From NCBI RefSeq assembly GCF_000003815.2, contig NC_049980.1, forward strand, positions 8,600,196 through 8,664,195: DNA of 64,000 nt, read 5' to 3'. This DNA comes from Branchiostoma floridae. Its lineage: Eukaryota > Chordata > Leptocardii > Amphioxiformes > Branchiostomatidae. Positions 757 through 59,300 of this stretch are shown in pieces. The translations under genes and the position numbers were made by a program. Within the stretch, counting starts at the first letter, position 1. Each line of letters opens with the position of its first letter. The notes beneath the pieces are model-generated. The model saw only the letters and a list, made by a program, of their open reading frames with translations. It was not told the DNA's origin and made no database searches.

Positions 757-1883
757 CTATTCCAAAGGCAAACCCACCTCATAAGAGAGATTGTGTCTTC
801 TATCCACCACCAGAAGAGACTCCAAGTTTTCCTGTGAGTAGACGTCGGCATCTTGATGCAATGACACATAGTTCTCAGTAGCGTAAAGTTCGTCTTCCGG
901 CAGCTGTTCCACCTTCGACGCGACCCGCGCTTCAGGGAGTTTGTACTCTGCCGTTCCTGTTGCCGGACCCCCTCCCCCGCCGTTGTACCAGATCATGGAG
1001 ATGACGCTGAGACTGAGCGGTAGGACCGCCGTCAGGAACATGAGACAGAACTGTCTCAGCTGTAAACACAGGTGGTCAAAGCTACGGAACCAAGGATGGT
1101 CCAACACTGACCTGAAAAACAACAACAAACAGATCATGGAGATAACGCTGAGACTGAGCGGTAGGACCGCCGTCAGGAACATGAGACAGAACTGTCTCAG
1201 CTGTAAACACAGGTGGTCAAAGCTACGGAACCAAGGATGGTCCAACACTGACCTGAAAAACAACAACAAACAGATCATGGAGATGACGCTGAGACTGAGC
1301 GGTAGGACCGCCGTCAGGAACATGAGACAGAACTGTCTCAGCTGTAAACACAGGTGGTCAAAACTACGGAACCACGGGTGGTCCAACACTGACCTGAAAA
1401 ACAACAACAAACAAATGATTGGTCATCAGTATTGATCCTGAAGAAGCCGACAGTGATCGCGTTGAAAGTTGATCCGTANNNNNNNNNNNNNNNNNNNNNN
1501 NNNNNNNNNNNNNNNNNNNNNNNNNNNNNNNNNNNNNNNNNNNNNNNNNNNNNNNNNNNNNNNNNNNNNNNNNNNNNNTCAGTACACACTAGGCTTGAGC
1601 TATGCATGCCATGGCTTCTACGAGTATTGCCTCGCTGCATCTTTGCTTTAATAAAATATGAAGAAAAAAATCGTAATGGCACCATGATAAGGATATAGTC
1701 AAGACACAGAGCGAAGGTGTACGTCGAGCATTAAGGTTATCACCATGGCAACGAAAGACCTCACCTGTCATTCTGACTGAGTCCCTTGCTGTCTTCTGTC
1801 TGGTCGACCCGTTTGTGAGGAAACCGCAGGTGTCGTCTGCGATGTACCAACACAGGTCCGGCATCTTCCGCGGAATCCTCCAT
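757..1883 (-). CDS. Putative single-pass membrane protein, two exons, unrecognised
   Basis: I do not recognise this gene. Exon 1 is 1883-1765 (ATG at 1883, 39 codons plus two bases, donor GACAG|gtgagg). Exon 2 ends at the TAG at 757-759 and begins after one of three identical acceptors (TTTTTCAG|GTCAGT) at 1393, 1252 or 1111. Exon 1 ends in phase 2, which joins the exon 2 frame correctly. With the last acceptor the protein is 157 aa; with the first it is 251 aa. It shows a basic N-terminal stretch (HRRRHLRFPHKR), one hydrophobic helix per repeat copy (FCLMFLTAVLPLSLSVISMI), a glycine run (YNGGGGG) and an acidic C-terminal tail with several tyrosines (ELYATENYVSL). A 100-base assembly gap lies in the intron, so a hidden exon cannot be excluded. 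The phase match and open frame support a real gene; the function is unknown. Confidence 0.55.
970..1393 (-). repeat. Tandem triplication of intron tail plus exon 5' part (141-bp unit)
   Basis: Three near-identical copies of a 141-bp unit are phased at 1393, 1252 and 1111 (minus-strand acceptors). Each unit holds a pyrimidine-rich acceptor and the coding sequence for the hydrophobic helix. The unit length is 47 codons and the units stay open when read through. Only the last copy continues into the unique glycine-rich and tail-coding part. Confidence 0.9.
1479..1578. other. Assembly gap (100 N)
   Basis: One hundred undetermined bases inside the intron of the minus-strand membrane-protein gene. 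An exon, or further repeat copies, could be hidden here. Confidence 0.99.
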
Positions 1884-3622
1884 GTTTCCCTTCAGTCAAT
1901 GTGGAACTCTTTCTTTTACGAGGAGCAAATTTTCCACGCTACACCATTTTACAAGTCGATGTTGTATTTGAAGGCGAGTTCTTCATGTATGGCAGTGTCG
2001 GCGTTGCTCTCGTGCTCTATACGAGTATGTTACTCAATACATTATCTCTGGATGGTGTGAGCGAAAGCCACTTGAAGCCCAAGCCATTGAACACGCTATG
2101 CTGTCATACGAGCCCTGCAATCCTCACGCAGCATACAGTATAGTAGCGACAGTAATGGAACCGTAGATGCGCTATCAGGAACCGAATGGCACTCCACAGT
2201 CGCCCCGCGTGCAACTGACTATCTGTATATCCGCGTGTCCGCCGAGGTGATTTACACCGTAGAGGGGGTATCATTTGTATCAGCTTGGCGCTCCCCCATC
2301 CGCGTCCATCCTCTACCGTAGTCAATCATGAGAAAATGGAGCCATGTAAATAGGCTTACACGATACGTTATAATAACGTTATTATGCTAGAGGCGCCACG
2401 GTACGAGATGGAATCTTCCGTGGATTATTTTGCGTGTGCATGTGTCTCGTCCGCTGAGGACTTTCCCATAAGAGAGCTAAATGTTGCCATGTCCCGGATT
2501 AGGTTAATCTATCTAAGGCTTTCAAGAGGGGTGGACCAAAACTAGAAAATGACAGAAGCAAAGGAAAACGGATATACCTTCTTATGGCAGGTATTATTTC
2601 AAAATACAAATGAAGATTTTACCTGACTGATCAAGACGTGAATGCAGTAAAAACAAACAAAACAGACATAAATGTTGTTTCTAACTGTATTGCGCCCCCT
2701 AACATTTGAGTGGTCTAATCGGGGTTCCCTTATGAAAATGATGCTGGTTCGGTATTGATCTGTACATGTATGTATGGCTCGTAACATGGTAGCAGTCGTG
2801 CCAATCTCTAGGCGCTTATAGAGCAGTAAAATACCTTATTCACTCAAACCTTAGTCGTTGACTGGAAGATTTCTAGGTGAACGAGGGGTATGTGGGGAAA
2901 CATGTAACATAATGGTATATTAGATTTTGGTTTTGATGTAACCATTAGTATTGAAGAGTAAACAAATAAAAAAATAAGGACAAGATACAAAAAAATACCC
3001 CTCCTTCTCTCGATTGCGTTCTGACATTCTACCAATACCAATTCTAGCAAAGACGGTTAAATAAATGCAACGTAATTCCCATGCATGATGAGTATAACAT
3101 TAGCGCGCTAGCGCTACCGATTTTGTATCCATGAGATGTTTGTAAATTGAGGTCACTCGAATGTTCCACTGATACTAATGTAGGGTAAGGCAGGTTATTC
3201 ATACATGTATATGGCCAAATACTGATGTAGAATAGCACAATGAAATAGCATCGTGAGAATATGATCCAGTAATGCTGAACCTTTCGTTTTGCAGTCGGCG
3301 GAAATGACCGTTACAAAGCGTCTGGTTCCCCATGTGTGCTGTCCCTAGTGCTGAAAAGTAGGTTGACATGGTGTTCTAGGCCAGACTGTGGTAATCAAAT
3401 TTCTCGCTGTCCAGGGCCGTAACGTAGTCATTGTTAGCACTTACACGATACTTTGGGCTAGTCTTGGAACAGGTGTATATTAACCTCTACATCTGTCTCA
3501 AAATCTGTGGGCCGGAGAAAATAATATCCCACAGAATTCGACACCGTAATCGAGCTGCACTACATCACGCTGTCTCTACCAGACTCCTAAAGCTGTTGTT
3601 GGGTTGCCAATGTTGAAACTCA

Positions 3623-3732
3623 TAGCCTGGTATCCAGCCGTAATTTAGCTCCCGAGTCTCTTCTCTCCTCTTTGCAATTACAAAGAGGAGAGAAGAGATT
3701 CGGGAGCTATATTACGGCTGAATACCAGGCTA
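3623..3732. repeat. Foldback hairpin element, about 52-bp arms
   Basis: The left arm starts TAGCCTGGTATCCAGCCG and the right arm ends CGGCTGAATACCAGGCTA. The arms are nearly perfect reverse complements over about 50 bases and almost touch (loop about 6 nt). The size and shape suggest a MITE-like foldback element. Confidence 0.85.
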
Positions 3733-8900: not shown

Positions 8901-11900
8901 CTCCCCTGTGCCGCCCTTTCCTTTCCTAATTCAGTTACGACAAGAAACCTCCTTGGTTACGACCAGTGTTTCCGCCAGACCTCAGCTGGGAGACCGTCCA
9001 CCTTGGGGCGCGAAAACCGCGAAAATTAAATTTAATCGCAAAACCGCGAACATTAAATTCAATTGTAAAACCGCGAAAATTAAATTTAATTGTAAAATCG
9101 CGAAAATTAAAGTTAATGGTTAACTGTCGCAAGAAAAAACAAAACAACTAACGTCCGATTAAGTTCAGTGCCGAAGTGTTATGATCTGTGCCGCGTACCG
9201 GTATGCCGCACCGAACGGGTACTACGACTTTTAAAAAGTTCTAGAAACGGTTCTTGGACTTTCAAAAAAGAAATAGCATTTGTATATATTCTCGTTTATG
9301 TTGTAGTATACTTATAAATCATCTAAAACCTTCCATAGATCGAGAAATTTGCGTTCAGAAATGACGAAAAACATCGTCTATCGGCGACAGTAAGCGTAAT
9401 GGCGGCCGAAATCCCGCAATCTCACGTGGTGACTTCTCGCGAGATCTGGGAAAGCTAGCGACGTCACGGGAAAGTAGCGCTGTGATTGGCTAGGATACAC
9501 AACAGCTACTGACCGCCATTTTTGATGCGTATTTATCCCGAAAATTTCTGCCGTTTTCGGAGATTTGCGGGCTCAAAACTCATATAAAAAGGAACCAAAG
9601 TTATACTTGATGTTTTTTACGTCCATCACCTCTTATGTGAACATTTTATTTTTCCGCTGTGTTGCCGATAACGAACTTGAAAGAGATCGGGGATTTCCCG
9701 TGCCAAGCACCCGGTGGGCACATGTTTCTGATCATCGTGTTTTGTTTTGTTTACGATGATTGATGATGAAAACAGAGACTAAAGTTTTTAATATCTAGAC
9801 AAAGTTAGTGTGTTTAGCTTCAATACAAAACACAAAACTGCGGTTTACATTTATCGACTTTGTACAGATTTCTCGGCAAAATGTGGGTCGCATTTTTTTA
9901 TGAGGACGGCCTCTGTTTGCGTTCAAGCCGTCCAAAACGAAATGAGACCGTCAATGGACGGGTGGACGCCCCTCTGGCGGAAACACTGGTTACGACTACC
10001 TTGACACAGCTCGGGTCACGTCCCCAGGCCATGTTGATATTGAGTGGTCAGTGCTGGGCTAGACTGGCCTTGTCCCTGTCTTTAAGTTAAAGATGCCACC
10101 CAAGGCCAGGTTCTTTGAAGTTTGAGTCAGGATTTCTACTGTTTTATATTACTAGTAGTATTGCACTGGAATGAATCTAGAAAGGCTATCTGGGGTCAAT
10201 CTGTTATAACTATAGAGATTTATTTGCCTTTCAGCTTATTCTGTTATAGCTTGTTTTTCATAAGTCTTACATAACCAAGCAATACTATATGATAGATATA
10301 GGGTATAGGGTAATTTTCTAAAAAAAATGAAGATTTGAGATGCGGATTTGGTGCAAAAATATTTCAAGAGGATATTCTATGTTGTCACTTCCTGCATCAA
10401 ATTATTGACTTGACAATAAATTATGAATCATTTGTCTGTCTCTGATGTGGGTAATTCTCTAAAAAAAAGATTTGAGATATGGATTTGATGTAAAAATGTT
10501 ATAAGACTTATTAGGAGGATATTCTATGTAGTCATTTCCAGCATCAAATTATTGATGTGACAATGAATTATGAATCATGTATCTGTCTCTGATGTGGTTC
10601 AGAGCGAAGTAACCCCACCCTTGCGTGTAAGGTCAGACCACTTTCTTACGTTACCACAGGATGTATGTAGGAAGTTAGCACAGGGCTGTATTTACATGGA
10701 GTTGATTTGGGTTGACCTCCAGGAGGTAACATGACCAGAAACAATGAAAACACCAGGAGAAAGGGACAAATAACCTTTGTTTGAACCCATTCTGGAACAG
10801 AATAACCCAAGAATAATGTCACATATGTTATATATATATATAGCAAATTGTAAACTAGATACCAAAACTGGAAGTTCCCCTGTAGTACCGTAACAAGCTG
10901 CTTGGTGCCTAGAATGAATTACATGGAGGTCTCATCAAGACCTACCCATATACCAAATATCAAGACCATCTATTCATGCCTTCTCGAGTTCTGCTGTTCA
11001 CCCATGTAGTGATGTACAGACATACAGGTATACAAATGCTACCAAATTCATAATTTTCTTGGCGACGCTAATAAAGTTAAAATGGCAACACAAAGAAATC
11101 ATTTACAGTATTGTAAACAAAAGAGCCACATTGGATTCTTGAGTAAATGTTTGTTTAAAGTGTTGATCTTTTCAAGTCTCCATGCCATAATTCAGAAACA
11201 AATTACATAGATGTATTTATCTACAGCACAGTTTGTTAACTGTGAATATCACAACTGGCCTCAGTATTCCATTGTTAACATTGGTATTATTGTTCAGCAA
11301 GGTTCTCACTGGCATTGAAAATACGATATATATAGTATATGGAAGACACTTTGCTGCTCTCAGAGCGCATCTCATGTAGTTTAATTTTCTGGTATGGTTG
11401 TTACCAATTGATGAATAGGTCTTGCTTCACAATCACAATCCAGCTGAATGCAAGCCGAAAATACCCGCCTGCAGCCTTGGATGGTTGCAGAAAGTCGTTA
11501 AGATCGCAGAAAAAAATATAAGAATATACGACTCGCCACTCAAAATTGTAGATTTGTTATTATGAGTCACATGTCGAATGACACAAGAAGAAAAGAATTT
11601 CAAGTCTGAAAATGCCTAGTGCTGCTTCACTATATGGTGATTTGAATGTGTAGACCTTGAAGAGACGGAGACATACATGTATGCCCACTTCAGTATTAGT
11701 GATAAGGGAAGAGGGATTGAAGAGGGACCCAAGAGGGATTTCTGGGCTTCCACATGATAACCTTGTCCTAGGATTTGGTTTTAAAGTGGAATGAATAACT
11801 AAGCGGTTAGCCAACACAGAAAGTTGGAACAAACGAGTGTTACCTGACTGACTATCAACTTTAACCTTATTTAATGTGCAGAGTGCAGACTACATACAGA

Positions 11901-14900: not shown

Positions 14901-17900
14901 ATAAATCAGCTGCGTAAAGGTTCCTTTCTTCAATACACGTCCGCACGAATACTATTATAGTGACAGTTAAAATCCTTGAACTTTCTTTTTTGGGAAACGG
15001 TCAAAAATTGATGTGTGCACGGATGTCATTCATGTGATAGAATCTATATGGCCTAATAATAAGAGAATAATCATTGATTTGTATCCAGTGCCTTATGGTC
15101 AGATTTGCTCTCTTGGCCATTGACCCCCGATGGAAGCATCGATCATAACAAAAACTGTTGTTGCAGATATGAAAAGTGATCCTTCGGATTGCCTTGTCCT
15201 TGGAAGTAATAAGGCTAAATGCACCAGAGATACTATTACTGGTATCAAAGGTGACAAGAGTCAGAGACTGGTAACTCTATACGGAGAATGTTTAAAAAAA
15301 AGTTAATGACCTTTCTGTTGCCATGGGAACAGCGAGACCTTGTGAGGTCAGCAGCATTTTGATGAAATATTGATATAACGTCTGGGTTGTATTGCAGTTG
15401 CAATATTGATCATGCCACCTGGTGTGGGAACGGTCCAGGTCCCATGTCAGGGCAGTATGCACTCGTGCACGGGGTTTACTTGGGCCGTGTTGATTGGATT
15501 ATATGGATGACATCCTCTAGGAACCCCAAAACTAGGAACCCCAAAACTGAGCATGCAAAAAAAAGGGTTACCCTCATTGTATGAAATCTAAGTAGCCAGG
15601 AAGGTTGAAGAAATGACTTAACACTGGAGTATACAGAACAACAGACTCTTCATTTTTGTTCTTTCACAGCTTCTCCTTTGGATTTGACTTTGGGATTCAG
15701 CGACTTAATCATCCATTTTTTAATATGCACTTATTCGCATATTTCTGCTCATTTTGCTGCTGCTTTGCACGTTGTACAGTATGAGTGAAAGCTTTTGGGA
15801 AGAGATGAAAATTGATGTTTGCGTGGATGTCATCCATATAATCAAATCAACATGGCCTTACCTGGCCTACCAGGGCTCGAAATATGCACCCAGGTGAACC
15901 CAAAATTGGAGCTGTGCACCCAATTATTTTCTGTGGGTGCACTGGTGCACCCAAATATTTTCTTAGGTTTATGTATGTAAAGATATCAAAGTATACTAGT
16001 ATACATCATATTCTTGACATCTAAGTTAGAAAGATGATGGAAATGTCTGTCATGGTACTTGTTTAAGAATTTGATAGCTTGTAACTAAGTTTTATTATTA
16101 TGTTATTACTTAGATTTAAGTGGTGCACCCAAATGTTTTTAGTGCAACCAATTTTTTAAGCTGGGTGCACCAGTGCATCTAATCCCAAAAATTAATTTTG
16201 AGCCCTGCCTACACACCATTAAAACACTGGGGCCTTGCTAGGTGCTTAGCAGCTAACATAAGTCCAGGGTGGAGGAAAGTAGCAATTAACAGAGGAGGAA
16301 TGTTAAGTGCCTACCCTGTAGGACTTGTACAAGTGTTGTGAATATATTGCCATTTGCCGGTGACGGTAAGCAGTACTTCATGGCTACGTTGGTATTTTGT
16401 GTGCTGGTTAAAGTATTAGTTATTTATAAAATTATTCTGCATATTGGGCTGTCACCATAGGAATATTATACATAAATATTACCAATTGAAGTATATGTAA
16501 TAAGATAAATCTTCAATGAAAAGTGCTGATTTTGTGTTTTAGCATGATTGTACTTTGGTTTCTGTATCTGTATAGTCTGTATTTACTATTTACATAGCCA
16601 CCCTACGGCATAACACATAACAGCTTTGCAGGCACACAGAGTGGCAGCAGCTGGTTACATTACACTGGACAACCTGTCACACCTTTGCATACAACTTTAC
16701 AAGGTATATAGTTGTAAGCTAATGAGGATGCCCCTATATGATACCAGAGGGAGAACGATTCCACTCTACACCATTTCTAGGGAAAATCAAATTTGTGTGA
16801 CAAGTAATGGTACACTTACTAAACATACATGTATCATCTGGAGGCTTGAAACCAAATTTGTGTTCTTGTTGTTTTCCCTAGGCTGTGATGAAGTTTCCAC
16901 AGGACTACCCCTACTCACCCCCCACTTTCCGCTTCACAACAAAGATGTGGCACCCTAACATATATGAGGTAAGTCTGATAGTACTTGTGTTGTAAATTCT
17001 TACAATTTACTTGTGTTCAGCCGGACAGAGTATGGAAGTTGAACACACGCCACTACCAGTGGACTAGCCCCCTGCTGTAGTGATTGCACAAAGTTGTGTA
17101 GCCCAGGGCTACTGAAACGGAGATGGGCGCTGCCCTATGCGCCATCAGGTGTGGGAAGGAACTTTGACTTTGACTTTGACAACCAGACACCCCAACACAA
17201 GGGTACCGGTACAGAAAATTCAGGTCCAGGTCTGGTTCAGGTCCAGAGGATCAGGTCCGGACCTGAACCTGGACCTCATTATCTGTGAAAACTTGTAAAT
17301 GGACAAAACAACAGGTCCATTTCAGTACAAAGGAATCTGTTTAGTGGAGTGTCCAACTCCCACTGGAGTTTTCAAACCCTATCATGATGTAGACAACATT
17401 AACTGCTTGACCAAGTTTGACTGTAGAAACTTGGTAATATAATTTGTTCATTTTCTATTCGGTCCAAGATCCGGTTTACTGATTTTTTCAGGTTCGTTTT
17501 TTTTTTCAAACCTGTCCAACGAGAAAAAAATGAGAAGTCAACATTTTAATCAATTAAGACAAAAATGAGTGAAGACTAAAATGACAGATTAAAATCTTAA
17601 GCTGGGAAATCACCTTTAGATAAGCACTCTTTATAACTTATTGACAAGAGCATTTGTCTGTGGGTAGGAGTTTGATTGACAGATGTCTGTCACCATGTTG
17701 TACAGAATGGAGATGTGTGCATTTGTCTGTGAGTTGGAGTTTGATTGACAGATGTCTGCCCATGTTGTACAGAATGGAGATGTGTGTATTTGTCTGTGGG
17801 TTGGAGTTTGATTGACAGATGTCTGTCCATGTTGTACAGAATGGAGATGTGTGCATCTCGATCCTCCATCCGCCTGTGGATGACCCCCAGAGCGGAGAGC

Positions 17901-20900
17901 TGCCGTCAGAGCGGTGGAACCCAACACAGAATGTCAGGTACCTGTCAATATAGTGTCATGTACAGCTGTTTGTCCCTTTAGATGGCTTCAAGTGTGTGCA
18001 CAAAATTATTCATGTTTCATTCAAAATGTATTTATGCTAAGTCCACTGTTAGTTGAATGTATTTCTATTTAAGTTGATCTATTGTTTGACTTTCAGTATT
18101 TTAAAAATTTTTATCAACTTTTTTTTTTTGACAAACGTAAACTTTGACTTTGATTTGATTGTTATTTAGTTCTACTGATTTACAGTTGTATTCATTTTTT
18201 AATCAAAATTTATGATGCTATATTATGTTCTTTTCTCTTCAGTTATTCTATTTTTGGGTTCAGGAATCCTTGAAAACTGCCAACAAGCAAAATGCATCTC
18301 CTGGTTATATGATTGAACTGAAATAAACATACAGCATGTAAAGTGCCTAAAAAGTTGTGCTAGATATTCCCAATCTTCAGATATAGCAAGTAGTATTATT
18401 TTTTTTCAGAACGATTTTAATGAGTGTAATATCGCTGCTGAACGAGCCCAACACATACTCCCCGGCTAACGTGGACGCATCAGTCATGTTCCGCAAGTGG
18501 AGGGAAAGTTCTGGCAAAGACAAGGAGTACGAAAACATTATCAGGTACGCTTCTCTTCGGTTTTCTGTGATCAAAATCTGTGTCTGAACATGTTGTGCAG
18601 TGTCCAAAATTCATTTTTGTGAATAGATGCACTGGTACACCAAACCTAAAAATCTAGGTGGGTTAAGAGATTTTTGGACGAGGGCACTGATTGATCCCTA
18701 CACATGAGCGAATAAAAGAAGGGGTTTAAGCGCTCATTCAAACAGGCCTTCCAACACCCAAAACGCCTTTCGTCCGCTTGGTGTTAGAACTCCTGTTTGG
18801 CCAAGTGGTCTATGAACCATTCCTTAATTTGCTCATTAACTGATTAATTAAAGGTTTGGAACAAACTACTACCCAGCTGGTACCCAGGCTAAAAATAAGC
18901 ATATTATTTATTAAGAAATGATTGTCCTACAGTAACCTGCCTGCTCCTGAAATAACCCCCACCTGTCAACTCAGTGTTTTTGAAGGCCCCTTGGTGGGTT
19001 GTTATTGAAAGGCCTGGTTCCCTTACATACCCTGGAGCTACCAACACAGCTGCTAATGGTTGTACTTATCCATGTGATGATCAAGCAATTACTGTAATCA
19101 GAATGAATGATGATGAATAAATGATAATTTCTAATCTTAGTAGATTTGATGAATTGTTCTCACTAGAGAAATGTACATGTAGCTTGGTAGCCATTCTGTT
19201 ATAAGGTCTTTGTTTATGATAACGTTAGTATTGACGAATATTTTTGATTCAATGTATACAACTGGATTAAAAATATGGAAAAATACTAGATATTTAAATC
19301 TCTATTTGACATCTTTCATCAGTGTGCAAAAGTTAATGTTTACTGAGACTTAACAAACAAGATGTTCTAAATAGTGTTCTAGATACACAAATACAGGTAT
19401 CAAACAAGATGTTCCAAACATTGTTCTAAATAAGCAAAACAGGTAACTAACAAGATGTTCTAAATAGTGTTCTAAATCAACAAATACAGGTAAGAAACAA
19501 GATGTTCTAAATAGTGTTCTGAATAAACAAATACAGGTGACAGACAAGATGTTCTAAATAGTGTTCTAAATAAACAAATGCAAGTAACAAAATATTCTAG
19601 ATAGTGTTCTAAATAAACAAATACAGGTAACAAACAAGATGTTCTAAATAGTGTTCTAAATCAACAAATACAGGTAACAAACAAGATGTTCTAAATAGTG
19701 TTCTAAATCAACAAATACAGGTAACAAACAAGATGTTCTAAATAGTGTTCTAAATAAACCAATCCAGGTAACTAACAAGATGTTCTAAATAGTGTTCTGA
19801 ATAAACCAATCCAGGTAACTAACAAGATGTTCTAAATAGTGTTCTAAATAAACAAATGCAGGTAACAAACAAGATGTTCTAAATAGTGTTCTGAATAAAC
19901 AAATACAGGTAACTAACAAGATGTTCTAAATAGTGTTCTGAATAAACCAATCCAGGTAACTAACAAGATGTTCTAAATAGTGTTCTAAATAAACAAATGC
20001 AGGTAACAAACAAGATGTTCTAAATAGTGTTCTGAATAAACAAATACAGGTAACTAACAAGATGTTCTAAATAGTGTTCTGAATAAACCAATCCAGGTAA
20101 CTAACAAGATGTTCTAAATAGTGTTCTAAATAAACAAATACAGGTAACAAACAAGATGTTCCAAACATTGTTTTAAATAAGCAAATACAGGTAACTAACA
20201 AGATGTTCTAAATAGTGTTCTAAATAAACAAATACAGGTAACAAACAAGATGTTCCAAACATTGTTTTAAATAAGCAAATACAGGTAACTAGCAGTTTGT
20301 TCCAAACATTGTTCTAAATAAGGAAACACTGGTAACTGCCAAGAAGGTGTTCTTTTAAGTTTTATACAAGCCAAGGGAAAATTATATTATATTTATACAA
20401 TAAAGTTAAACTTAAAGACACTATAAAGCATTGTTTCAAGTGCTGGAAAGTTTGAATGCTTTTGCTGGAAAGAAAAGAATCTACAACATATGCCAAAAAG
20501 CAGATACTCAAGCAACTGGATATGATTTTGGATGGTGGATACCATCTGAAAAGTCTGACCATTTCCAAAATCATAATAATTATCCAGTTGCTTAAATAAC
20601 TGCTTTTTTGGCATATGAATGAATGAATGGTTTTATTCGATTAATGTGATCCATGAAAAAGTATATGGCACAGGCTGAATTGCATACTTTTACAATTAAC
20701 ATATTAATTGGCTTAGGCAAATACAGCTCGAAAATACAGCGGAATTATAACTTGTAAGTTTGTATTTTTAAAATCGACAATAGACGCTATTTTAAAACAG
20801 ATAGGTTCAGCGTTAAACCGATGAGGTAGTTTTGACATGCACAATGCGTGGCTACAAATAGCTTACAGCATGTAACATGTTCAATATATGGCATAGAGTC

Positions 20901-21259: not shown

Positions 21260-21276
21260 TATGCAACTGTCGTCAC

Positions 21277-24407: not shown

Positions 24408-30623
<6,216 letters not shown>

Positions 30624-31938: not shown

Positions 31939-34900
31939 TCATATTGTTGGAATTCTGTACCCTGCTGACATCTTGTTGTGCTGAATCTGCCTGAGCACTG
32001 CTAAGATAGAGTCCAACTCTGCCCTGAACTGTTCAATCTGCCTGTTCTTAGACTCTACTATCTGTGCCCAGTGAGAGTCGGTCCTTCCTCCCTTCGGACT
32101 CAACATCCCGTTCTGCAGTCCCCTCTCTCTCTCCCTGTACTTATCCTCCATGGCCTGGATTTTAGACTGCAGCGACTCAAAGTGTCTCATCTCCGGGGAC
32201 TGCTGTGCCTTCGCCTCGGCCAGTTCCTCCTGAAGTCCCCTCAGCCGCCGCTGCAGGGTCTCCTCCCGCAGTTTCACCCGTACAAGCTCCTCCTGGTCTC
32301 TCTTGGCCGACGCTAACTCTGACTTCAGATGTTCCAGCATGACGTCCCTCGTCTGCAGTCTACTCGTGAGCTCCGCTATCTCGGAGGTGGACTGCTGTCT
32401 CGTGTACTGTGACAAGAGTTTCTCCACCTCTCTCTGGTGAGCTGCTTTCATGACGTCCAGTCGCTCCTCTGAGGCCTCGTGTGCTTTGCGGACGTTGCTC
32501 TCCGCCTCGGCGACCTGCATCTGAAGCTTGACTCGCTGCTGTTCAAGTTCAAATGAAAGAGTTTCTACCTGTTGCTTCAGGGTTTCATTCTCCCTTTGGA
32601 TGTCAGAAATGTGCAAACCACTGAAAGCGTGCGGTTCGTACGACCTGTCATCCAGAGAGTCTGGAAAGGCGACGTCATGTCTCGACGGCAAGGCATCTTT
32701 ACCCGCCGCCTTTTTCTTCCCAACACTTCTGGTCTTGCCGAATTTTCCTCCATCTTTCCCAGAGCCAGCTTGCAGTTTTTGGCACGTTTTCTGCAGCTGG
32801 AAGATTTCCTGGCTCTTTTCCTTCAACTCCTTTTTCAAAACTAAAGTCTCTGCCTCGAGCCTTTGGGCCGCAAAGGCCTCATTATCATTCATAGACTTCC
32901 TCATCTGTGCAGCTTCCAGACGTTTATGCAGCTCTGTGATTTCCCTTTTGAACTCTTCAACCATCTTGTTGTGTTCAGACCTCTCCAGGTCAAGCTGTAT
33001 CTCCAAGGAGGATACTTTGTTGGAGTCTGGCCTTGCCGATACTTGCAATCTATCGGCGAGCTGGGTCCTAAGTCTGGAGATCTCCTCTTCGTACTGAAGC
33101 TTCACCTGGTTGTGAGTCTGTTGTAGGGCACGTAGACTCAACTTGGCATCCTCGTCCCTTCTCTCCAGCTCACCCTCCAACTTCCTGATTCTGTTCTCCA
33201 GGAACTGTACAGACAGAGGCCTTGTGGGGCTACTGGGTGCCGAGGGAGGTGCTGCATTTGCGGCAAGGATCATTGCGGGAATGGAGTTCGGATGGCGTCT
33301 CTTTATGATGTTCTCCATCTCTTTTACTTGCCGCTCCAGATCGAGGATGCGCTTGGCGTCGGCTGCTCGCTCCTTTGCCCTGCCCCTGGCGCTGTCTTGT
33401 TTCTGTCCAGTTTGGGCCTCCAGCCTCTTTACCTGTAGACAAATAAACAGAGGTCAATTTCCCACTCCGGATCCCTCTTAATAAAATTCCTGCAATCATT
33501 CAAAAGTTTGTACCTGATAAGAATTTCCAGGTATGGCCCAGGTCCAGAGGAACAGGTCCAAGTCGAGACCTAAACCTAGATCTAATTGTCTGTGAAAACT
33601 AGTACTTGTGAATGGGCAGTACTCATGAAAATATTGGTCAATTTCACTACAAAAGAATCTGTCTGATGGAGTCTCTAACAGGCATTACTGTTGTTTAAAT
33701 GAAGATAGGATTTTAAACTTTATGTAAACAACAGCAATGCCTCTGTTAACTTAGACAAGGTTTGACTGTAGAAACTTGGTAAAAATAACAATCAACTCTC
33801 TTCTACTTTGCTCTTATTATTTTCACCTGCCAGTATTATAATCTGTTCATTTCATAAAATAATGGGTCAAAAATATGGCCCACTAATTTTTTTCAGGTCC
33901 GATTTTTCCGTACCGGTCCAACAAGAAACAACAGTTTTGCACCAGTACCCACTCATAATTATGATGCTAAAATAGAATCCTGGCCAGAACCCTGATGAGC
34001 ACACTCTCCCCATACCTGGCTCCGGAGTCGCTCCATCTCCTCCTCCTTCTCCCGGAGGACCCGTGTCTGTCTGTCCACCAGTTCCTGGTTCTCTGCGTAC
34101 CAGCGCAGCTTCCTCTTCAGCTCCAGGGCCTCCTCCTCATACTGCTGTGCCCTAGTCCTCACCTCCAGCTGCTGTACCTCTGTCATCTCACTCACCTAGA
34201 GAACAGATCAAACACATCACATCAGCTGCTGTACCTCTGTCATCTCACTCACCTAGACAACAGATCAAACACATTACATCAGCTGCTGTACCTCTGTCAT
34301 CTCACTCACCTAGAGAACAGATCAAACACATCACATTAACTGCTGTACCTCTGTCATCTCACTCACCTAGAGAACAGATCAAACACATCACATCAGCTGC
34401 TGTACCTCTGTCATCTCACTCACCTAGAGAACAGATCAAACACATCACATCAGCTGCTGTACCTCTGTCATCTCACTCACCTAGACAACAGATCAAACAC
34501 ATTACATCAGCTGCTGTACCTCTGTCATCTCACTCACCTAGAGAACAGATCAAACACATCACATTAACTGCTGTACCTCTGTCATCTCACTCGCCTAGAG
34601 AACAGATCAAACACATCACATTAACTGCTGTACCTCTGTCATCTCACTCGCCTAGAGAACAGATCAAACACATCACATCAGCTGCTGTACCTCTGTCATC
34701 TCACTCACCTAGACAACAGATCAAACACATTGCATCTGATTCTGACCAATTCAGGGTTTCAAGACGGGACATGTCTCTAGTCCAGAAAGGACATGATATT
34801 GGCTGTCTCTAGCTTTCAATTTTTTCTGTCCCTCTCATTCTTTGGTACTCAATGTTGATGATTTTCCTTGTAAGATCATCAATTTTATGTACTTAATTTT

Positions 34901-37900
34901 TGGGATGGATGGGGTGAATTTTTTTCTGCCCCAACAAGCAAATTTCTGTCTTAGGATGGATGGAAGGGACCTGAAGACAGCCCTTTACTGGTAAGTGGTC
35001 AATAATGTAATGCAGTAATATAGTATTTTAAAAAACATGAAACTAGGTAGCTACAGAGCCTTTTTTTCTTTGATGCCGTAAGTGCAGTGAGTTGTTTACC
35101 CACTGTGTTAAGGGTACAGTAATGGGAGCAGAGCTCCATTCACCATCTCATGAATTCAACCCATGACCTCTAGATCTCATATCAGCTAGCCTAGCCACTT
35201 GATGCCACAGTTTAGATTATCACAGTTATAAAATGTGATCCTGTCTGTCTTAAATTTGTTTGCATGTGTCAAGATATAAGCCATCAATGTTTCAATTATA
35301 TCTCTTACTTGTCTGTTAGCCTTGACACCGAGGGCCCTCTCCCTGTCTAGCTGCTGCTCCAGCTGTGACTTCTCACCCTTCAGCCTCACCACATCCCTCA
35401 GCATGTCCTCACTGTGTAGCTTGGACTTTCTCAGCTCCTGGAATCATTCACAAAAGGGTATAATGTGAAGCAAGCAAAAACAAACAAAAGTTCCTAGAAA
35501 ACATATAGCAAATGCCAACACTGCAACTTACTATGAGAAACAAACAATTGATTAATTCACTGGAAAGAGGAGAAAGGGGCATTCAGGTAAGGTACTGTAA
35601 TTCCATACATTGTCATGAAAAATTTATTTCAAGGGGGAAGAAGGCTTTTTGCATACTATGTTCTAACTTTATGTTTGAAACAGATCTACATGTATTAGCA
35701 GTTTAGCATTAGAAATGCAAATTTGTGGTTCCATGACTGCATTACTGAGGAAACTGCAAAAACAAAACCATTGCAAACATTTGAATTTTTACAGTTGCAT
35801 AAGCGCTAAAACAATGATACAGGGGATTAAAGACTTTTTTTACAAAGTAATAAATTTGTGTTGTCTTCATTGAACACATAGCTGCACATGACAATCTATT
35901 ACAAGTGATAAGCTAAATGTGCTAGACTGTACTTACTTTTTCCAGGTAGGCCACGCGAGCAGCAGCCATGGACACCTCAGCCGTGCCTGCCTTGATCTGC
36001 TGCTGTGCTGCAGGACTGGTGATGACCCCCTTAAACAGCAGGGCCCTCTCCCTCTCCTCTCCTGTCTCCTTCAGCCGGGCCACCTCTGCCTGCAGCTTCT
36101 GATTCTCCTGAAACAGCAGGGTCTCTGTCTCCTTGTACTTTGATGTACCCGTCTTAAGCTGTGCGTACAACCTCTCGTTCTCCTGTTGGTAGCCTTTAAG
36201 GAGGTCCTCTTGCACCTTGACTTCCTGTTGCAACCTCAACACTTCTTCATCTGAAGCTTTTCCTTTGGAGTCTGATTTTTGGCTTGATGGTTCGTCTTTA
36301 TTTTCCTTGCTATCATGCGCTTCTGAGTCGCCAAGTTTTGCTCGCAAGACAAAGTTTTCCTGCCTTACTTGGTCTAACTCCTTGTCGTGCTGGAGGCGCA
36401 GCTCTTCCACCTCCCGCTGGTGCTCCCTCTGCTGAGCTCGAAAGTCGGCGTGGATTTTCTCCCTGAGCTTCTGTTCGACTTCCAACTCCCTTTGCAGATC
36501 CTGTACTTGTAAGAGCAACATCTTCTCCCTGGAGAGGTGTTCTATTCCCGGAGGTGGGCCGTCTGATGACGTGACAGGGGGTTTGTCTTCCCACGCTTGC
36601 CTGGAAGACTTCCCCTTTCTTTCAGGTGAGAAGTGGTCTTGGATATAGTGAGCAAAAGACTCCACAGATGCCATTAGCTGGGTTCCAGCTACAGAGTCAT
36701 CCATAGGAACCCCTCTGGCCTTAAACGTGGAGACCTGTTTAGGAGTCCATCTATAGGGGCTAGCACTGGACGGTCTTCCCTTGACACTTTGTCCGTGGAA
36801 GCTGACAGTCTTGCCCTGTTTGCTGGGAGTACTTGTCTTTGGTATGGTCGAGTCTCTGGCATGTTTTCCTAACTTTGCATCAGGGGTGCTAGCGCTTCCG
36901 TTCTTCCTTGATGGGACAACTTTACCGTACCCAGAGCTTCGTACCTGACTCTGTTTTTTAGTACCTTTCTTTGGCTTCCCTTTCCTGCTGACTTGCTGTG
37001 ATCTACCATCCACAATGCTGTCATCAAGACTGTCCAACCTTCCCACCTGAGTCTCGATGTCCCTCTCCAGGTCCTGGATGGTTTTATAGTTTCGCTCTGG
37101 AGACTCATATGTAAACTTCTGCCCTATGTGTTTCCTTTGTCTGGGTGTGGGTACTGGTGTTTGTGGCTTACTGTCTGTGGTGTTGTCAAGGTCATGATCG
37201 TCGTAACGGAATCCTTTCGGATCAACATGTGCAGGGCTGAGGTCAAACCCATGAGCATCTGATGCCCCAGTTTGACCTTGGTCAAATCCTGTTGCAGGTT
37301 CAAGATCAAACCCATGATTCTCACCTGCAGGTCGAAGGTCAAATCCATGGTTCTCACTAGCAGGTCGAAGGTCAAATCCGTGCTTCTCACTAGCAGGTTG
37401 AAGGTCAAACCCATGGTTCTCACTAGCAGGTTGAAGGTCAAACCCATGGTTCTCGCGAGCAGGTTGAAGGTCAAACCCATGGTTTTCACTAGCAGGTTGA
37501 AGGTCAAACCCATGGTTTTCACTAGCAGGTTGAAGGTCAAACCCATGCCTCTCACCAGTTGGTTGAAGGTTGAGTCTCCTGGAGTCATCAGCTGGTTGGA
37601 GGTCAAACCCTCTGTTCTCCTCAGGTAAGGTGAATCCTTGGTCTTCTGTACCAGCTGGTTCCAAGTCAAAACCTCTCCCCCTGCTGGGTTGAGCAGGGCT
37701 GAGGTTGAACCCCCTTGCCTCGGTCCCTTCCCCCAGGTCTAAGTCTGCAGCCGTACCCGTGCCTAGCGTGGACATCTGCGCATCCTGCAGGGCTCGCTGC
37801 AGGGCCTCCACGTCACTGTTGGTTCCCGTTGCCGTGGGAACCGTCTTCATCTGGGGAGAATCCCCGTCCGTGTCCCCTCCTGAGGGGAGCAACGTCTTCC

Positions 37901-50300: not shown

Positions 50301-53300
50301 AGACCGTGAAAGTTTGGTACCGAGAAGACAAAGTGAATTACAGTACTAGTAAGTAGATTACCAACCTTGATGAAATTAATCACTGTGTCGTGTTTTGTTT
50401 CGCCAGTATCGCCTGGCGCGGCCCGCGGCACCACCCCTCCGCTACAGAAGGACCAGCGCGGGAACAGGCAGGTCCACACGCCCTCCACGGCGTACGTGTC
50501 CGAGCTCAGCTTCAACTCAGGGCCGCAGCGGAACCAACATCATCAACAACAACAACAACAACAGCAGCAACAGGTATTGGGAAAATCTTACCCTGGTTAT
50601 AGGCAACAATATTTTTACCTTTTCTTTCTTGAGCAAGATTTTTTTTCTTGCGTCATTTCTGGATCCCTTTTTTTCTTTTGGACAATTTGCCGTTCCCAAA
50701 TTTGTTTTTCCATTTTTTAGTTTCTTGTCAGTGTTATTCTCTTCCCTATCTGTTGTACTTTTTGTTACATTAATTATAATAGGTGTTAACGGACATTTGA
50801 TAGTTTAGGAATAAATTGAATTGTTTCATACCAAAATGTTGGAATAGATTTAGGAGTAAATACTGGATATACCTAGAGTACATTTTATATTTCTCATCTG
50901 AGTCAGAATCTTTGTACTAGTAACTCAATGCTACTTAACTCTCTGACGCATCTGTTTATCTGACATCATGTTACCATGGTTACAGGATCCCATGAAAGAT
51001 GAGATGAGCTCCCACAATGCCCGGCACACCCAGTCAGCTGGGGCCCTGTCGTCACGGCAACAGAAGGGAAACTACCTGCCAGGTAAGTTTTGGATGTCCT
51101 AAAACATGAAAATGTCCTGGTCTGTTCCTAATAGATAGATGTCCTGCACTACTGAAAGTAGTCAACAGGGGGCGCTTCAGAGAAAGGAGGCTCCTGTTTG
51201 GAAGGATGACAGAAATGAAAGAAGTAATCTGGTAGCTGTAACTACCAGGTAAGTTTTGGATGTGCTGTCTGAAAACATGCACAAATGTCCTTGTCTGTTC
51301 CCAATACATGTCCTGCACTACTGAAAGTATCCAACAGGGGGCACTTTAGAGAAAGCAGGCTCCTGTTTGACAGAAATGAAAGAGGTAATCTGGTAACTAT
51401 AACTTGATTATGTTGGAAAAAAAGGGGGGTTCCAGGATCTTTTGTGGTCCTTAATCAGAGTGACCTTCGGATTGACCCAGTCCCACAGGGACGGCAACCG
51501 GACATTGTCAGCCCTGGGTTTACAAAACAGTAATTAAAATTACAATACACCTGGTATTATCCAGGCTTCATCTCTCTGGTTACCTCTAGCTGGGTGGAGC
51601 TATTGATTGTGTCCATTCTCTATTGTGTCCGAATCTGATATGTACGTGCATAGCGAGGTGTTTGAGTTGTCAGGTAGAGAAAATAGGGCACCATGGAAAA
51701 CTGACTGCAGCTGTGCCATTGCTTTGTTTGTTGTGTAAATTGTAACGTTGGTATTAGTAAGAAGGACTGAGTATACCGGCGTGCACATGTCGTCTTGGGG
51801 GTGGTGGAAGAAACAGAGTCCTTGCAGTAAGGATAGTCAAATCTGTTGTCTGTCTTGTTTCTAAGTGTTTAACTTTAAGATAGCTTTATGTACTAGTAGA
51901 ATCTTGTTTTCAAGTTGTTCCACAGATATTACTGTGTACTGTGCTGTCAAACACATGCCATATGCACCATCTTGTTTCTATGTACTCTATGTACAAATGT
52001 AACTGCTGGGCTATGTTCAATATATCCTTTACAAAAAGAGTCAACTTTTTGCCTTGATCTAGATTTTAACAGCTTTATCTATTAGTATCAGGCTGCTTTT
52101 TGTATGTTATCATAATGATTGTGTATGTTATCAGTCATGGTAAAGTTAATAAACTAGTCTGCCTATAATGTGCCTACTGTATTTGCTCAAAAAGTACACA
52201 ACCCAGTTAAGGTACGCACACATGATTTGTGGCATGTCTGTGGGAATGAATCGTAAATTGGAAACACTGAAATAAAGTATGCGCCCCTTCTCCACCAATC
52301 TTGCACACATCCTGAGCCAGATAAATGTTGTACATGAAAGCAAAAATCTTTATAGATAGTTTTGCATCCTTCCTAGAAACTGTAGTACCACCTTGATCTA
52401 TTTGAGGTCCTTTTTTCATTTATAGTATGTAATAACCTCAAAAAAAGTAGACACCCCAACTTTGGTAAAAGCTTTTGAATTTTGAAAATTCAAAAAGTGT
52501 GGATGTCTTGAAAAATGGCTTAGGTCAAAGATGTATCAAGGTTGAATAAAAGAAATAAATTATTCGAGAAAATACATTACAGTGAAAATATTTCTAGTAT
52601 CAAAGATTGTTTTTCATGTATTTTAGGTGACAGGGTCATCTTTGCGGAGAGCCCCTCTGCACCAGGGATCCCCATTGTGTACAGGACACAGGAGGAGAGG
52701 GCCAGCAACCCGGACAGACTCAACTTAGATAGGTCAGTATATTTAATTCTACAAAACTAGGGGTAGGTATCAATACTGAAAACTTAGGTACAGTTAAGGT
52801 TCTGGTCCAGAGGATCAGGTCCAGACCTGAACCTGGACCTAATTGTCTGAGAAAAAGTTGTAATGGACAATTTCGCTACAAATGAATCTGTTTGGGGAAG
52901 TATCCGACTCCCACTAAGTGTTTTGAAATCATCATGTAAACAGTGCCAACTTTGACTGTAGAAAGATGGTAGAAATGACTATAAACGCTACCCTGTTCTT
53001 TGCTCTTGTTAATTTCTTGGACCAGTAAGCTCCAAAAGTTTTGTTTGTTTGCTTCTCCTGCCCATATTGTTCATTGAGCTTCTGTCCATATTGTTCATTG
53101 TCTAATCAGTCCAAGGTTTGGTCTACTGATTTTTTCAAGTCCGTTATTTTCGGACTGGTCCAACAAGAAAAAAGGGTGTAAATGTACCCACACCTACACT
53201 GTCTTGACTTTCCTAAATGTAGAAAATACCAATTCTTATTCCAGGAGACGGCTGACAGTCTGTCCCATCTTGGAGGGGGAGGAACACCTGAGACTACTCA

Positions 53301-56300
53301 ACCTTCAGCACAACCTCATCTCTAAGATCCAGCACCTGTCCAACCTCAGGAGACTCATCTTCCTGGACCTGTATGATAATCAGATAGAGGAGATCACAGG
53401 CCTGGCTGCTCTCAAGTCCCTCAGGGTACTTATGCTGGGCAAAAATAGGTGAGATGTACAAAATGACTAGAAACAGGCTATGCTAGTTCACTTTTTCTGC
53501 GGGATAACCTATATCCGTTATTTAGGGATATGGTTTCATACTTGAAACAGATGCTGGTTTCAAATTGCAATAGTTTCCAAACATACATGGTCCATCGACC
53601 TGATATCCCTGTACAGTAGCTACTAGTAGATACTATATTTTAAAAAACCATGTTTGCAGTCAGATGTGTATAACTAATATTTAGTAAGATGTAATTATAA
53701 TCATCTGCTGTCACACCACATACCTGCGAAGCTGGTATATTATGCCAAAGGACGCTTATATACCGGTTACAAAGGTACAGAGATCGCTAGGGGCAAATTG
53801 CATGACTTTACAATGATTGGAGTACATGCAACTTGTACCATTTTGATCCTATATTGAGCAGTCTCTCGATTAACAGCTTGGAAGCCTGTTCACAGTTAGA
53901 GTTGCCATGGAGACGTTAGGATTGGTTGCTAGGATACATGAACTTTGCACATTTAATGGTAGCTGGGATGATTTGACAGTACAGGTGGTTATTCCTTTGA
54001 TCATTTGATGATGAAAGGCTTTGGTATAAATCCAATTTTGTTAGACCATAATTAAGAAATACCGTACTTGGTTATTATACATTGTACAGCTTTCATGTTT
54101 TTGTACCTTTTAAGTTACTTCTATAAAGATGCATAAAATAATATTATTAGCATCCTACAAGTATTGGCACCTTAGGTGCTAGAAAGTTTAATGATGTTTT
54201 ATGTAAAGGCCAGACAATATCTATTTTCCAGAAGATGTTGCATTTTAGGACTACTAAACAATTTTTTTTTTGTTTGAAAAAAGTCCTCTTTACTGTGTAG
54301 CAACATGAAGACACAATTCGGACTGATCCATAGTATTAAATTCTCTTTTTGTTTCAGAATCAAGAAAATTGCTAACCTGGATAATCTTCAAAAACTGGAT
54401 GTCTTAGATCTCCATGGAAACCTGGTGAGTATTTTGGACAAGCGTTGATAGTGTCAGTAGTGTACAGTGTAGTTTTAGGCCACAACAATTTTATCTGTTG
54501 CTTCTCGAATTTGCCTGTCCATTTTTTGTTGAACTTCATTTTAAAAAAAACAAGTCCCGAGAAAAACATTATAGGTTTTACTATCACAAACCTGTAAATA
54601 TAATGATTCCACATACACATATTACTTTCAAGCTAAAAATAATGCTTTTTATTCAGGACATTGGTAACAAATCAAAGGAAGGTATGTAATTGAATAAAAC
54701 ATCATCACCCCAGACCTTTTGAAAAAATTCATTTTAATTTTTTTCTGAAAAAATTCGAGAAGCATTACAGATAAATTTGGTGTGGTCTTATCAAGGCCTG
54801 AAAACAGATATGAAACCATGCTCACACCTTGACGGTTATAAGTTGACCTATATCTTCATGTATCTTTGTCATTCTCCCCCTGTGCAAATGTCAGTGCAGT
54901 GGTTAAGCATTGGTCCCTGTGCTGACAATGACATATTGTGCTATATTTCATAGATCAATTATACTGCCCATTCATTAAACAAGCTTTTCTGGGAGAATGA
55001 TATATAATGTTAGCTCTAAGCAGGGTAACAAAAGAGAAACATTAGGGAAAATGACAAAGTACATCGTCTCAGATTTATGTTGCAATATCGTGTCTGTGTG
55101 TATTTAGCTCAAGCAAACAAAGAAGTCACTTGTCTTTTATCTGAGTTATGGCTTTCATATTAGGTTGTTTAAAAACTTTTATAATCGTGTGTATCAGTCT
55201 TGATTCTCTACGCTTATTGGGTTGTGGTACATGTACGCGTATTCGTAAATAAGTTTATCAGGTTGGTAGTATGATTACAATAATTATCTTATTTTACAAT
55301 ATCATTGAGTTACATCTACATGTAGAACTTGAGTTAGTACTTTGTGCTTAGCTGTTTTCTTTCTAAAAGTTTGTACTGAAGACTAGTAAAGACGTTTTGG
55401 GTTACCCTGCCTACATGTGTATCCGATTCGGTGTTTTATGTTAGACTTGCTTATTCATAATTTCTTTGTATATTTTCAAGTTTTCTGACACTGATGTACA
55501 TTTATATAACATTATATAAGACTTATGAAAGTTATACTTTTAATTGAGTACACAGGGCTCAAAATACCACCTGCAGTATGATCCATACTTCCTAAATTCA
55601 TAGCGGTGCAGGTAAAATTTGTCTGGTGCAGGTAATTTCAATGCCACCTGCACCAGTGCAGGTATGCAGAAAAAAGTATTCCGAGCCCTAGTACACTTTG
55701 TATGAAGTGTGTATGTGTCTGACAGATCAGTAAGATTGAGAACCTGCAGCACCTGAGTGAACTGAGATTACTGAACCTGGCAGGCAACAGTCACAGTGTA
55801 GTAACAGTTTTTAATTTTCTCCTGACAGATCAGTATGATTGAGAACCTGCAGCATCTGAGTGAACTGAGAGTACTGAACCTGGCAGGGAACAGTCACAGT
55901 GTAGTAACAGTTTGTTATTTCCCTCCTGACAGATCAGTAAGATTGAGAACCTGCAGCACCTGAGTGAACTGAGAGTACTGAACCTGGCAGGGAACAGTCA
56001 CAGTGTAGTAACAGTTTGTTATTTCCTCCTGACAGATCAGTAAGATTGAGAACCTGCAGCACCTGAGTGAACTGAGAGTACTGAACCTGGCAGGGAACAG
56101 TCACAGTGTAGTAACAGTTTGTTATTTCCTCCTGACAGATCAGTAAGATTGAGAACCTGCAGCACCTGAGTGAACTGAGAGTACTGAACCTGGCAGGGAA
56201 CAGTCACAGTGTAGTAACAGTTTGTTATTTCCCCCCTGACAGATCAGTAAGATTGAGAACCTGCAGCACCTGAGTGAACTGAGAGTGCAGAACCTGGCAG

Positions 56301-59300
56301 GGAACAGTCACAGTGTAGTTTGTTATTTTCCTCCTGACAGATCAGTAAGATTGAGAACCTGCAGCACCTGAGTGAACTGAGAGTGCTGAACCTGGCAGGG
56401 AACAGTCACAGTGTAGTAACGGTTTGTTATTTCCTCCTGACAGATCAGTGAGATTGAGAACCTGCAGCACCTGAGTGAACTGAGAGTACTGAACCTGGCA
56501 GGGAACAGTCACAGTGTAGTAACAGTTTGTTATATTTCCTCCTGACAGATCAGTAAGATTGAGAACCTGCAGCACCTGAGTGAACTGAGAGTACTGAACC
56601 TGGCAGGGAACAGTATCATCCATGTGGAGAACCTCAGTGGCATGGACTCACTCGCTGAGCTCAACCTGCGCAGGAACCAGATCGTCAATGTGGTAAGCAT
56701 GTATTGCTAGTTCACTTTTATCCACAACTATAATCTATATCTGTTCTTTTTAAGAACAAGGTATTTAGGGACGGTGGTTTCAAACTGCAATATTTTGAAA
56801 ATAGTAGCCTCTACCAGGCTCTGCAGATGGGTGGTCTAACCATGATGAGGAAATAAGTCCTCTGGCCAGCCAAATCCCCTAGCATACTATTAACTCTATT
56901 TGTCCAATTTTTACTATAATTAGGCCACCGTTTCGAGTTACTGCTTTAAGCATATTTTACTACCTGTATGTCTAACCTTCATCGACGTACATCCTGTATA
57001 GTCTTCCTATTAAATGCATTTGAGTTTGAGAGGATTTAATTTTGCTGTAGGGAGAAAATGGAGTGTTCGCGGTGGTTTTGAGTTCACTGTTTCTAAATTA
57101 CATGTATGTTGATGTTGTAATAGAAAGTTGGCAGAGTCGTGAAAAGTCAATTCTGTAACATGTAAATTCTTCCTTTAAATATTGCTTAATGTATTGTGGT
57201 TAAGAGATGGTCTACTTGTTAGATTTGCATAATTATTTATGACCAGTGACCACAACTTGTCTATATTTTCAGTCAAAGCCCTATTAATGTGAAGCCCCTC
57301 TCATAAAATACATTTAATCTAATTTTGTGATTCCTGAAGAACCCATCCTAAAATAACATTTAAAATTCAGTTTCTTGCCTTCGGTACAAAGAAAAATTAC
57401 TATCACCTAACTTGACTAAAGACAGATTGCACGATTTTGTGCAGATCATGTCAGTTTCGAGGCAACCACAATTTTCCATGCAAACCAGATCTCGGCATTC
57501 ATACCAGTCATTGTTGTAGAAGAAAGGGCCTTAACAGTTGATCCTGGGCGCTCCAGTGTGAGCGGAGATATGACCCTGTTCAGGTTCATGTCTGACTCAC
57601 CATAAAGATCAGCTTTCTCGAAACAGAACAATAGCTTTGTTCATGTCTTGACTTTGAAGGAAGGCATTGTGTCATCGTTGTGGCGGGCCAGGCTTTTCTT
57701 TAAAGTAAGCATTGGCTTGGGTTACTGTGCAAATAAGGCCAAGAACTAGCAGCAGTTTCCTCATGCTGTTTCCATGTATTACCACATACATTTGGGCACT
57801 GCAAAGACTGTACATGTACTACCTACCTGTGTGTGATGTGGGGGTCTTGATGGGTAATGTGGTCTTATTTCTGTAACAATATAACTTCCGTTGTAATGCA
57901 ATGTTTGACTGAGAATTTCTACTGACTTGCTTATGATATAAGAAGATCTAGATTGAGAATTGAATCGGGTACGGTAATTGTACCTGCAAGAGAATAGAGA
58001 GTGTTCAACCTGTGTTAAATTCATGTTTGGCATTGGTAAATTGAATATGTTTTTAAGGAATAGGAGGTGACAGTGTTTTACTACAGTCGTACTCTTTAAA
58101 AAAGTGTAATCGTTCCTCAACGTATGGTATTCAACATCTTATGTTGTGGGAAATTGATTTTATTTGCAAAGTATGTGTCTCAAAATGTCATCTGTTTTGT
58201 GAGATAAGAGTTACACGTAAAAGGATTATTTGACATGTAACGCTACTTCACTTTTATTCGGTCACTCTATATCCGTTTTTGAAAACAGGGTAATATAGTC
58301 TAGTATTTAGGGATATCAAGTTGAAGGACAATGGTTTCAAATTCTATTATATCTGAAATATTGCAGTTTGAAACCACCGCTTGTCAACTTGATATCTCTA
58401 GATATATCCTGTTTTTAAAAACAACAGATAAAGGTTACCCCTCGGATAAATGTAACTAATAATGCCTTACTGTGTGGCAGTAACACTACTGCACCCTAGG
58501 TAGTCTGTTTAAATCCAGTCAGCTGGCACATAACTACTGGGTCTGACCCATTCCAGCATGGGCACAATCAATAATTCCATAACCTACTGTAAATGCATTT
58601 AAGTTTGCAGGGATTTAATTTCGCGGTAGTTGGAAAAATGACTTTTCGCGGTGGATTTAAGTTCGCGGTAACACTGTAGACTGCAGTCTAATACCATTAT
58701 AGAAAAATGTTCGCGGTGGATTTAAGTTCGCTGTGAAGTGGTCACCGCGAAAACCGCGAACATTAATCCACCGCGAACATTTCTGCATTTACAGTACTTA
58801 CCTGGGTGAAAGGCACCGTCCTGGAATGTTGCTATGAATATTTCATCCATAGCAATCATGGATCCACATGTAATTCTGGGGACGTTTCACCAAAGTTGCT
58901 TTGCCACGACCTTGTAAAAGGTTGTCGCTATAAGATATAATTTCATATTATATAGAGTACAAAACATGATTTGGCAGATACCAAGACATGCTGTGAGTTA
59001 CTTACTAACAGATGTGAAAAGTGCGATTCACATCTTAAATGATGGTCTTCTTGTTCTTTAGTGTTATTGATTTAGGATAATAAGCGTACGTGACTCATAC
59101 GAAGGGATGTTTTTGACACGTATAATAATCAAAGTCTGGGTGGGCCGTCCCAGCGGAATCCCATTCAGTACCCGGGACAGATTTTTCTGACACGTCCTGT
59201 CAAGCGTGATTTCATTAATGATCAATAAATGGGGTGATTTGGGCGCGGATTGTGCTGGGGTCTCATATTACATGTGGCAGTGTGCATGGCTGATGTTACA

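Follow-up and report, generated by a model that had tools for sequence, protein, structure and literature searches.

Known repeats at intron-exon boundaries

Lancelet genes are known to carry tandem repeats across intron-exon boundaries, so-called mirages, and two reports on them, which proceed gene by gene, name Adh3, troponin C, the globins Gb6 and Gb9, and PGBD5, with repeat lengths of 10-72, 60, 108, and about 150-160 bp (PMC3087553, PMC3902484). There, RT-PCR supports regular splicing and copy number differs between haplotypes (PMC3087553) as well as between assemblies (PMC3902484), and an intron-gain route for lancelet mirages has already been proposed in print (PMC3087553). The arrays that we describe are of the same kind, i.e., repeats at a 5' or 3' exon boundary in which many units carry splice signals, and the phenomenon as such is already known in lancelets. 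New here are further members in other genes and an initial, rough idea of how frequent and how biased such arrays are; our literature search, with most subscription journals outside its reach, found no genome-wide count of mirages.

Intron gain by tandem duplication, as described for vertebrate ATP2A1, potato RdRp, and fission yeasts, likewise involves duplications that carry splice signals, and in potato RdRp an intron-exon structure was duplicated. Our arrays differ from intron gain of the ATP2A1 and RdRp type in that no new intron was detected and introns already present grow longer at one of their ends.

Sample and prediction of splice sites

The window, as we call the 64-kb stretch of DNA at C2:8600196-8664195, belongs to a genome of 513 Mb in 431 contigs. 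Judged by its genes, the host is a lancelet because a search of the genome with a lancelet fluorescent protein gave 68 exon-sized matches of up to 88% identity; a Pfam GFP profile search of the genome gave 0 matches. All statistics refer to a test sample of 344 kb composed of the window, 200 kb around it, and eight 10-kb loci drawn at random. A ninth such locus (L030), with a single coding zinc-finger array and none at a boundary, is excluded from the P values. Tandem clusters with a period of at least 35 bp were collected by TRF and self-BLAST (n = 32), and those with a best copy identity of at least 90% are called young arrays. Splice sites are exon-finder predictions, not transcript-based, and the exon finder was trained on sequence with arrays collapsed to about one copy; its output of 208 exons, distributed over 56 fragments, had sensible splice profiles, and the main set of 283 sites comprises those of exons scoring at least 4 in fragments scoring at least 20.

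Boundary arrays in the window

All six arrays claimed by the first-pass annotation are indeed present, five of them on predicted coding splice sites, and its reading of AG|GT in four of the six is borne out by three junctions (given below) and by the sixth array, a minisatellite with a 47-bp unit containing ...CAGGT. The first acceptor array (989..1413, minus strand, 3.0 × 141 bp, TCAG|GTCAGT) lies in an unnamed gene that had been called a membrane protein and whose predicted product gave no match in a Pfam search. We note that an assembly gap at 1479-1578 starts 65 bp past the end of this array, the copy number of which may thus be a minimum. In a UBE2R-like gene, the spliced model of which has a UQ_con match in Pfam, an acceptor array (17650..17856, plus strand, 3.1 × 67 bp, ACAG|AATGGA) continues with its final copy into the exon, and the 47-bp minisatellite (19351..20336, plus strand, 21 copies) is located inside an intron of the same model, off predicted splice sites.

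Another acceptor array is located at 34166..34730 (minus strand, 9.9 × 57 bp, CTAG|GTGAGT) in a gene that we, like the first-pass annotation, take to be CEP162. GCGAGT replaces GTGAGT in 2 copies, and units 4 and 8 of the 10 carry identical variants. The Pfam matches of the CEP162 model are galactose-1-phosphate uridyl transferase domains from an adjoining gene fused on, besides one weak Tup_N match under its cut-off. An LRRC49-like gene with LRR matches (Pfam) carries two arrays, of which the donor duplication (51073..51404, plus strand, 2 × 166 bp, CCAG|GTAAGT) was missed by TRF and found by self-BLAST (offset 166, 81% identity). Its acceptor array (55719..56614, plus strand, 8.7 × 103 bp, 9 copies) has units composed of a repeated element of about 72 bp and a spacer of about 31 bp. 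Two other repeats serve as contrast cases, namely an ordinary coding repeat within a large CEP162-like coding exon (37294..37610, minus strand, about 8 copies of 33 bp) and a two-copy 147-bp array at 10308..10597 (strand not given) with no gene assigned.

Boundary arrays beyond the window

The process behind these arrays had been thought of as local, a view that does not hold, with the same pattern on C2 outside the window, on C11, C4, and C17, and in the published lancelet genes. Additional boundary arrays were found in PTPN9-like, FAM199X, ES2, and CRT-like transporter genes and in two GFP genes, so that the two GFP-gene cases come on top of ten robust arrays in the 344 kb. Seven of the ten are acceptor arrays (PTPN9-like, membrane protein, UBE2R, CEP162, LRRC49, FAM199X, and ES2) and three are donor arrays (LRRC49, CRT-like transporter, and ES2), with unit lengths of 57-166 bp. 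Spliced models of six of the eight array genes in the 344 kb have Pfam matches (PTPN9-like, UBE2R, LRRC49, CRT-like, FAM199X, and Es2); of the remaining two, neither CEP162 nor the membrane-protein gene has a supporting family match. The ES2 acceptor array (L027:5369-6102) is irregular, with five unevenly spaced acceptor copies, one of which has its own donor, and it contains a predicted extra exon with acceptor and donor that would come closest to a nascent exon in the sample.

Both GFP-gene cases were confirmed at the DNA level: one gene (L031) has a donor duplication of 98 bp × 2 with 100% identity, the other (L032) an acceptor duplication with splice sites 127 bp apart and 89% identity, and both splice-site copies are intact in each. 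At L031:361-635, the exon with the duplication also shows a stop-containing insertion by tblastn, and this GFP copy looks disrupted. The GFP-gene cases are silent on boundary versus intron because the search begins from exons. HMM searches yielded 404 exon matches (myosin 142, PTP 144, and p450 118) that, judged by eye, include no tandem exon fragments, but this is a weak test because profile searches also failed to show the arrays known from the ES2 and PTPN9-like genes; the ES2 profile gave only 3 ordinary matches although two arrays are known there. Two other repeats of the sample may be mentioned in passing: a 206-bp satellite (15.6 copies, 96% matches) that runs into a gap in the left flank of the window (L002:1983-5195), and an identical 52-bp array at 2875 and 5574 in a near-duplicate arrangement of histone genes (L029).

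Splice signals and reading frame

The last copy of acceptor arrays continues into the remaining exon, and in donor arrays the first copy comes after the exon body. AG is intact in 38/38 acceptor copies, in keeping with the published description of mirages as having splice signals in many units; GT-containing motifs served to find the 8 donor copies, and their GT is no test of conservation. Inner copies score near the presumed functional copy, only the first ones in LRRC49 and UBE2R being weaker. If an inner copy were used, open sequence would be added in frame in the membrane-protein and FAM199X arrays, and a stop would be met in CEP162 and the 132-bp ES2 unit (read by hand). In the six remaining arrays, the length added would not be divisible by three. 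Such stops and frameshifts in most arrays imply that splicing from a single copy is needed in most of these genes. Selection for the reading frame was considered and rejected, with periods divisible by 3 in only 4 of the 10 robust arrays.

The perfect record of AG dinucleotides could be taken as a sign that surplus copies are kept by selection to secure or regulate splicing at weak sites; for the donor copies, having been found by GT, the equivalent observation is uninformative. We consider such selection for redundancy quite improbable, given that the neutral expectation is only about 1.8 broken copies in 36 (a rough figure from hand-entered divergences), which makes zero unsurprising, and that the repeated sites do not stand out as weak (scores of 5.0-12.5, compared to quartiles of 5.9-10.4 for predicted acceptors and 5.5-9.6 for predicted donors).

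Relatedness of the units

The earlier claim that the unit sequences are unrelated is confirmed: the 11 units (10 boundary units and the 47-bp unit) have no match of more than 15 bp in common, with a best E value of 0.02. Matches outside of the arrays in the 344 kb are partial and concern only 2/11 units (CRT-like, 44 bp; ES2 donor, 25 bp). In the genome, no other copy was found among the 40 of 115 candidates scored for the CEP162 acceptor unit or among the 40 of 2943 scored for the LRRC49 acceptor unit. Introner elements are repeats linked to intron edges, from which, as from a transposon, our arrays differ in that units are unrelated between loci and both units searched genome-wide are single-locus among the candidates scored, so that the proposed exclusion of one common transposon also stands. 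The 44 bp of the CRT-like donor unit are found at L025:2783-2825 with 84% match inside an unrelated 121-bp array, and a dispersed repeat may be the source of part of this unit.

Heterozygosity is very high in lancelet genomes, and haplotypes or reads joined end to end by the assembler might mimic tandem arrays, an idea to which the proximity of the membrane-protein array to an assembly gap lends itself. Patterned differences among up to 10 copies of 57 bp are hard to reconcile with such an artefact, no second CEP162 or LRRC49 allele was seen elsewhere in the assembly among the candidates scored, and resequencing backed the PGBD5 repeats (PMC3902484). Altogether, we regard an artefact as extremely improbable.

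Enrichment at predicted splice sites

The first-pass annotation had proposed to compare the overlap of tandem repeats and splice sites with chance, which we did in the 344 kb using predicted sites. The outcome is positive overall and for young arrays and weak for all arrays outside the window. Across the 344 kb, 10/32 arrays lie on a predicted splice site compared to 3.30 expected (P = 0.0009), and in the window alone 5/8 arrays with a period of at least 35 bp do so compared to 0.72 expected (P = 0.0002). The window is the discovery sample, and the fair figures are those from outside of it: 5/24 for all arrays (2.58 expected, P = 0.11), 5/13 for arrays within genes (2.18 expected, P = 0.05), and, for the eight random loci alone, 2/11 (0.96 expected, P = 0.25), both of them from one gene. 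Young arrays show the effect most clearly, with 8/14 on a site in the 344 kb (1.32 expected, P about 1e-5) and 4/9 outside the window (0.93 expected, P = 0.009), while arrays of less than 90% identity do not deviate from expectation (2/18, 1.98 expected). These tests assume independent arrays, though LRRC49 and ES2 have two each, and several subsets were tried.

The picture is unchanged with a looser site set (12/32, 3.8 expected) or with a stricter one (9/32, 2.8 expected), and circular shifting of arrays in the 264-kb block gives a mean of 2.33 compared to 8 observed (P = 0.0003). Two weak boundary calls with exon scores below 3 (BLK 95419 and BLK 244873) bring a plain tally of boundary arrays to 12/32 and are excluded from the 10/32. 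Boundaries are thus struck above random placement, most clearly by young arrays, and boundary repeats look fairly common in the lancelet genome and biased to real exon edges.

The first-pass annotation had left open whether duplications are biased to boundaries or tolerated there. In the second case, they would arise everywhere, be purged from exons, and be hidden by splicing at boundaries without any bias, which would fit the weak excess of all arrays outside the window and the missing excess of old arrays. However, tolerance alone fits poorly because introns should tolerate arrays at least equally, yet young arrays reach a density of 28.3 per 100 kb at boundaries (100 bp per site) compared to 1.4 in introns and 3.0 elsewhere, a difference between boundaries and introns of about 20-fold that includes the discovery window. 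Outside the window, the 4/9 young arrays at boundaries also exceed what tolerance would predict. Moreover, a slower decay of the constrained exon copy predicts an excess of old arrays, the opposite of the observed excess of young ones. We therefore retain the bias, as seen in young arrays, and consider tolerance on its own unlikely.

When sites are shifted into the intron, the 8/14 young arrays matched drop to 4 with a shift of 50 bp and to 2 with one of 100 bp; a single match is left over the range of 150-600 bp and none over that of 800-1000 bp. Shifts into the exon still match 4-5 of the 14 young arrays at 50-200 bp, partly because short exons bring their other end near, and the excess may reflect exon proximity in general. 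Decoys, i.e., splice-like sequences outside coding exons with scores that equal or exceed the real-site median, show no clear excess for all arrays (12/32, 9.8 expected) or young ones (5/14, 3.9 expected), while real sites in the same score range are matched by 6/32 arrays (1.7 expected) and 4/14 young arrays (0.7 expected). The splice motif as driver was rejected on the grounds of these equal-score decoys.

Intron gain

The proposal that intron gain through tandem duplication of AGGT-containing segments has been caught in progress draws on AG|GT at four of the six junctions in the window and might also invoke the predicted extra exon of the ES2 array with its acceptor and donor. Our results argue against it and make it very improbable that such gain is under way, because all ten robust arrays occupy one end of an intron already present in the gene model, donor and acceptor contexts resemble each other beyond the 99% level of the null in only 3 introns (about 1 expected) out of the 99 that were testable among 102 found, and AG|GT is not enriched (2/7 acceptor arrays compared to 26/144 predicted acceptors overall). 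The top-scoring intron with similar junctions lies within the ES2 array itself, and no intron with both junctions copied from one segment was recognized among the 99 introns in 344 kb. Predicted donors are preceded by AG in 72/139 cases. As a general rule, the interpretation of AG|GT units as serial small introns was rejected on the same acceptor counts; serial re-splicing via CTAG|GTGAGT in CEP162 is possible.

Origin of the arrays

At a probability of roughly 70%, we favor the reading that these arrays are lancelet mirages that originate as end-joining duplications spanning existing splice sites, some of them later expanded, with one copy being spliced and births biased to real exon edges. 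It builds on the ten predicted sites in 344 kb, the splice signals kept in the copies, and the excess among young arrays. Each array would go back to a single tandem duplication by end joining, for which paired nicks or overhang-bearing breaks are the probable sites, and copy number would afterwards rise and fall via unequal exchange or slippage. The mRNA would use the copy adjoining the remaining exon and the other copies would become intron, leaving the protein unaltered at any copy number since the surplus copies are intronic. Births would be steered to real exon edges by transcription, splicing, or chromatin and not by the splice motif.

The end-joining tandem duplications at breaks with overhangs described in a previous study are short and have microhomology or extra bases at the joint (PMC5730883). 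Joints deduced by array arithmetic for nine of our ten arrays, leaving out the irregular ES2 acceptor array, seem alike, with an overlap of 0-5 bp in five and about 8, 11, 31, and 46 bp extra in four. By this analogy, the arrays resemble end-joining duplications at overhang breaks, of which the break itself would be our inference and to which array growth and concentration at exon edges are added here. The spacers of about 31 bp (window 55719-56614) and 46 bp (L027:639-1164) match neither flank, and no convincing donor sequence for either was found in the 344 kb; the ES2 spacer has a 25-bp match of 96% in L028. With regard to subsequent growth, the variants shared by CEP162 units 4 and 8 suggest turnover of several units at once, by unequal exchange or slippage.

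Going further, a mutational process that favors working exon edges for tandem duplication, guided by the boundary as transcribed or spliced instead of by a motif, might have produced thousands of mirages and lengthened introns from their ends. We put this forward only tentatively. The rate outside the window, 5 in 290 kb, would correspond to roughly 2,900-20,700 mirages per genome (Poisson limits).

Implications

For the interpretation of lancelet genes, caution is advised against taking AG|GT arrays for new introns, and the published model of mirages seeding introns becomes testable genome-wide. The part worth following is the boundary bias. If mirages are common and truly biased to exon edges, lancelets would be a natural system for studying the choice among up to ten near-identical acceptors and would also be suited for tracing the cause of DNA breaks at exon edges.
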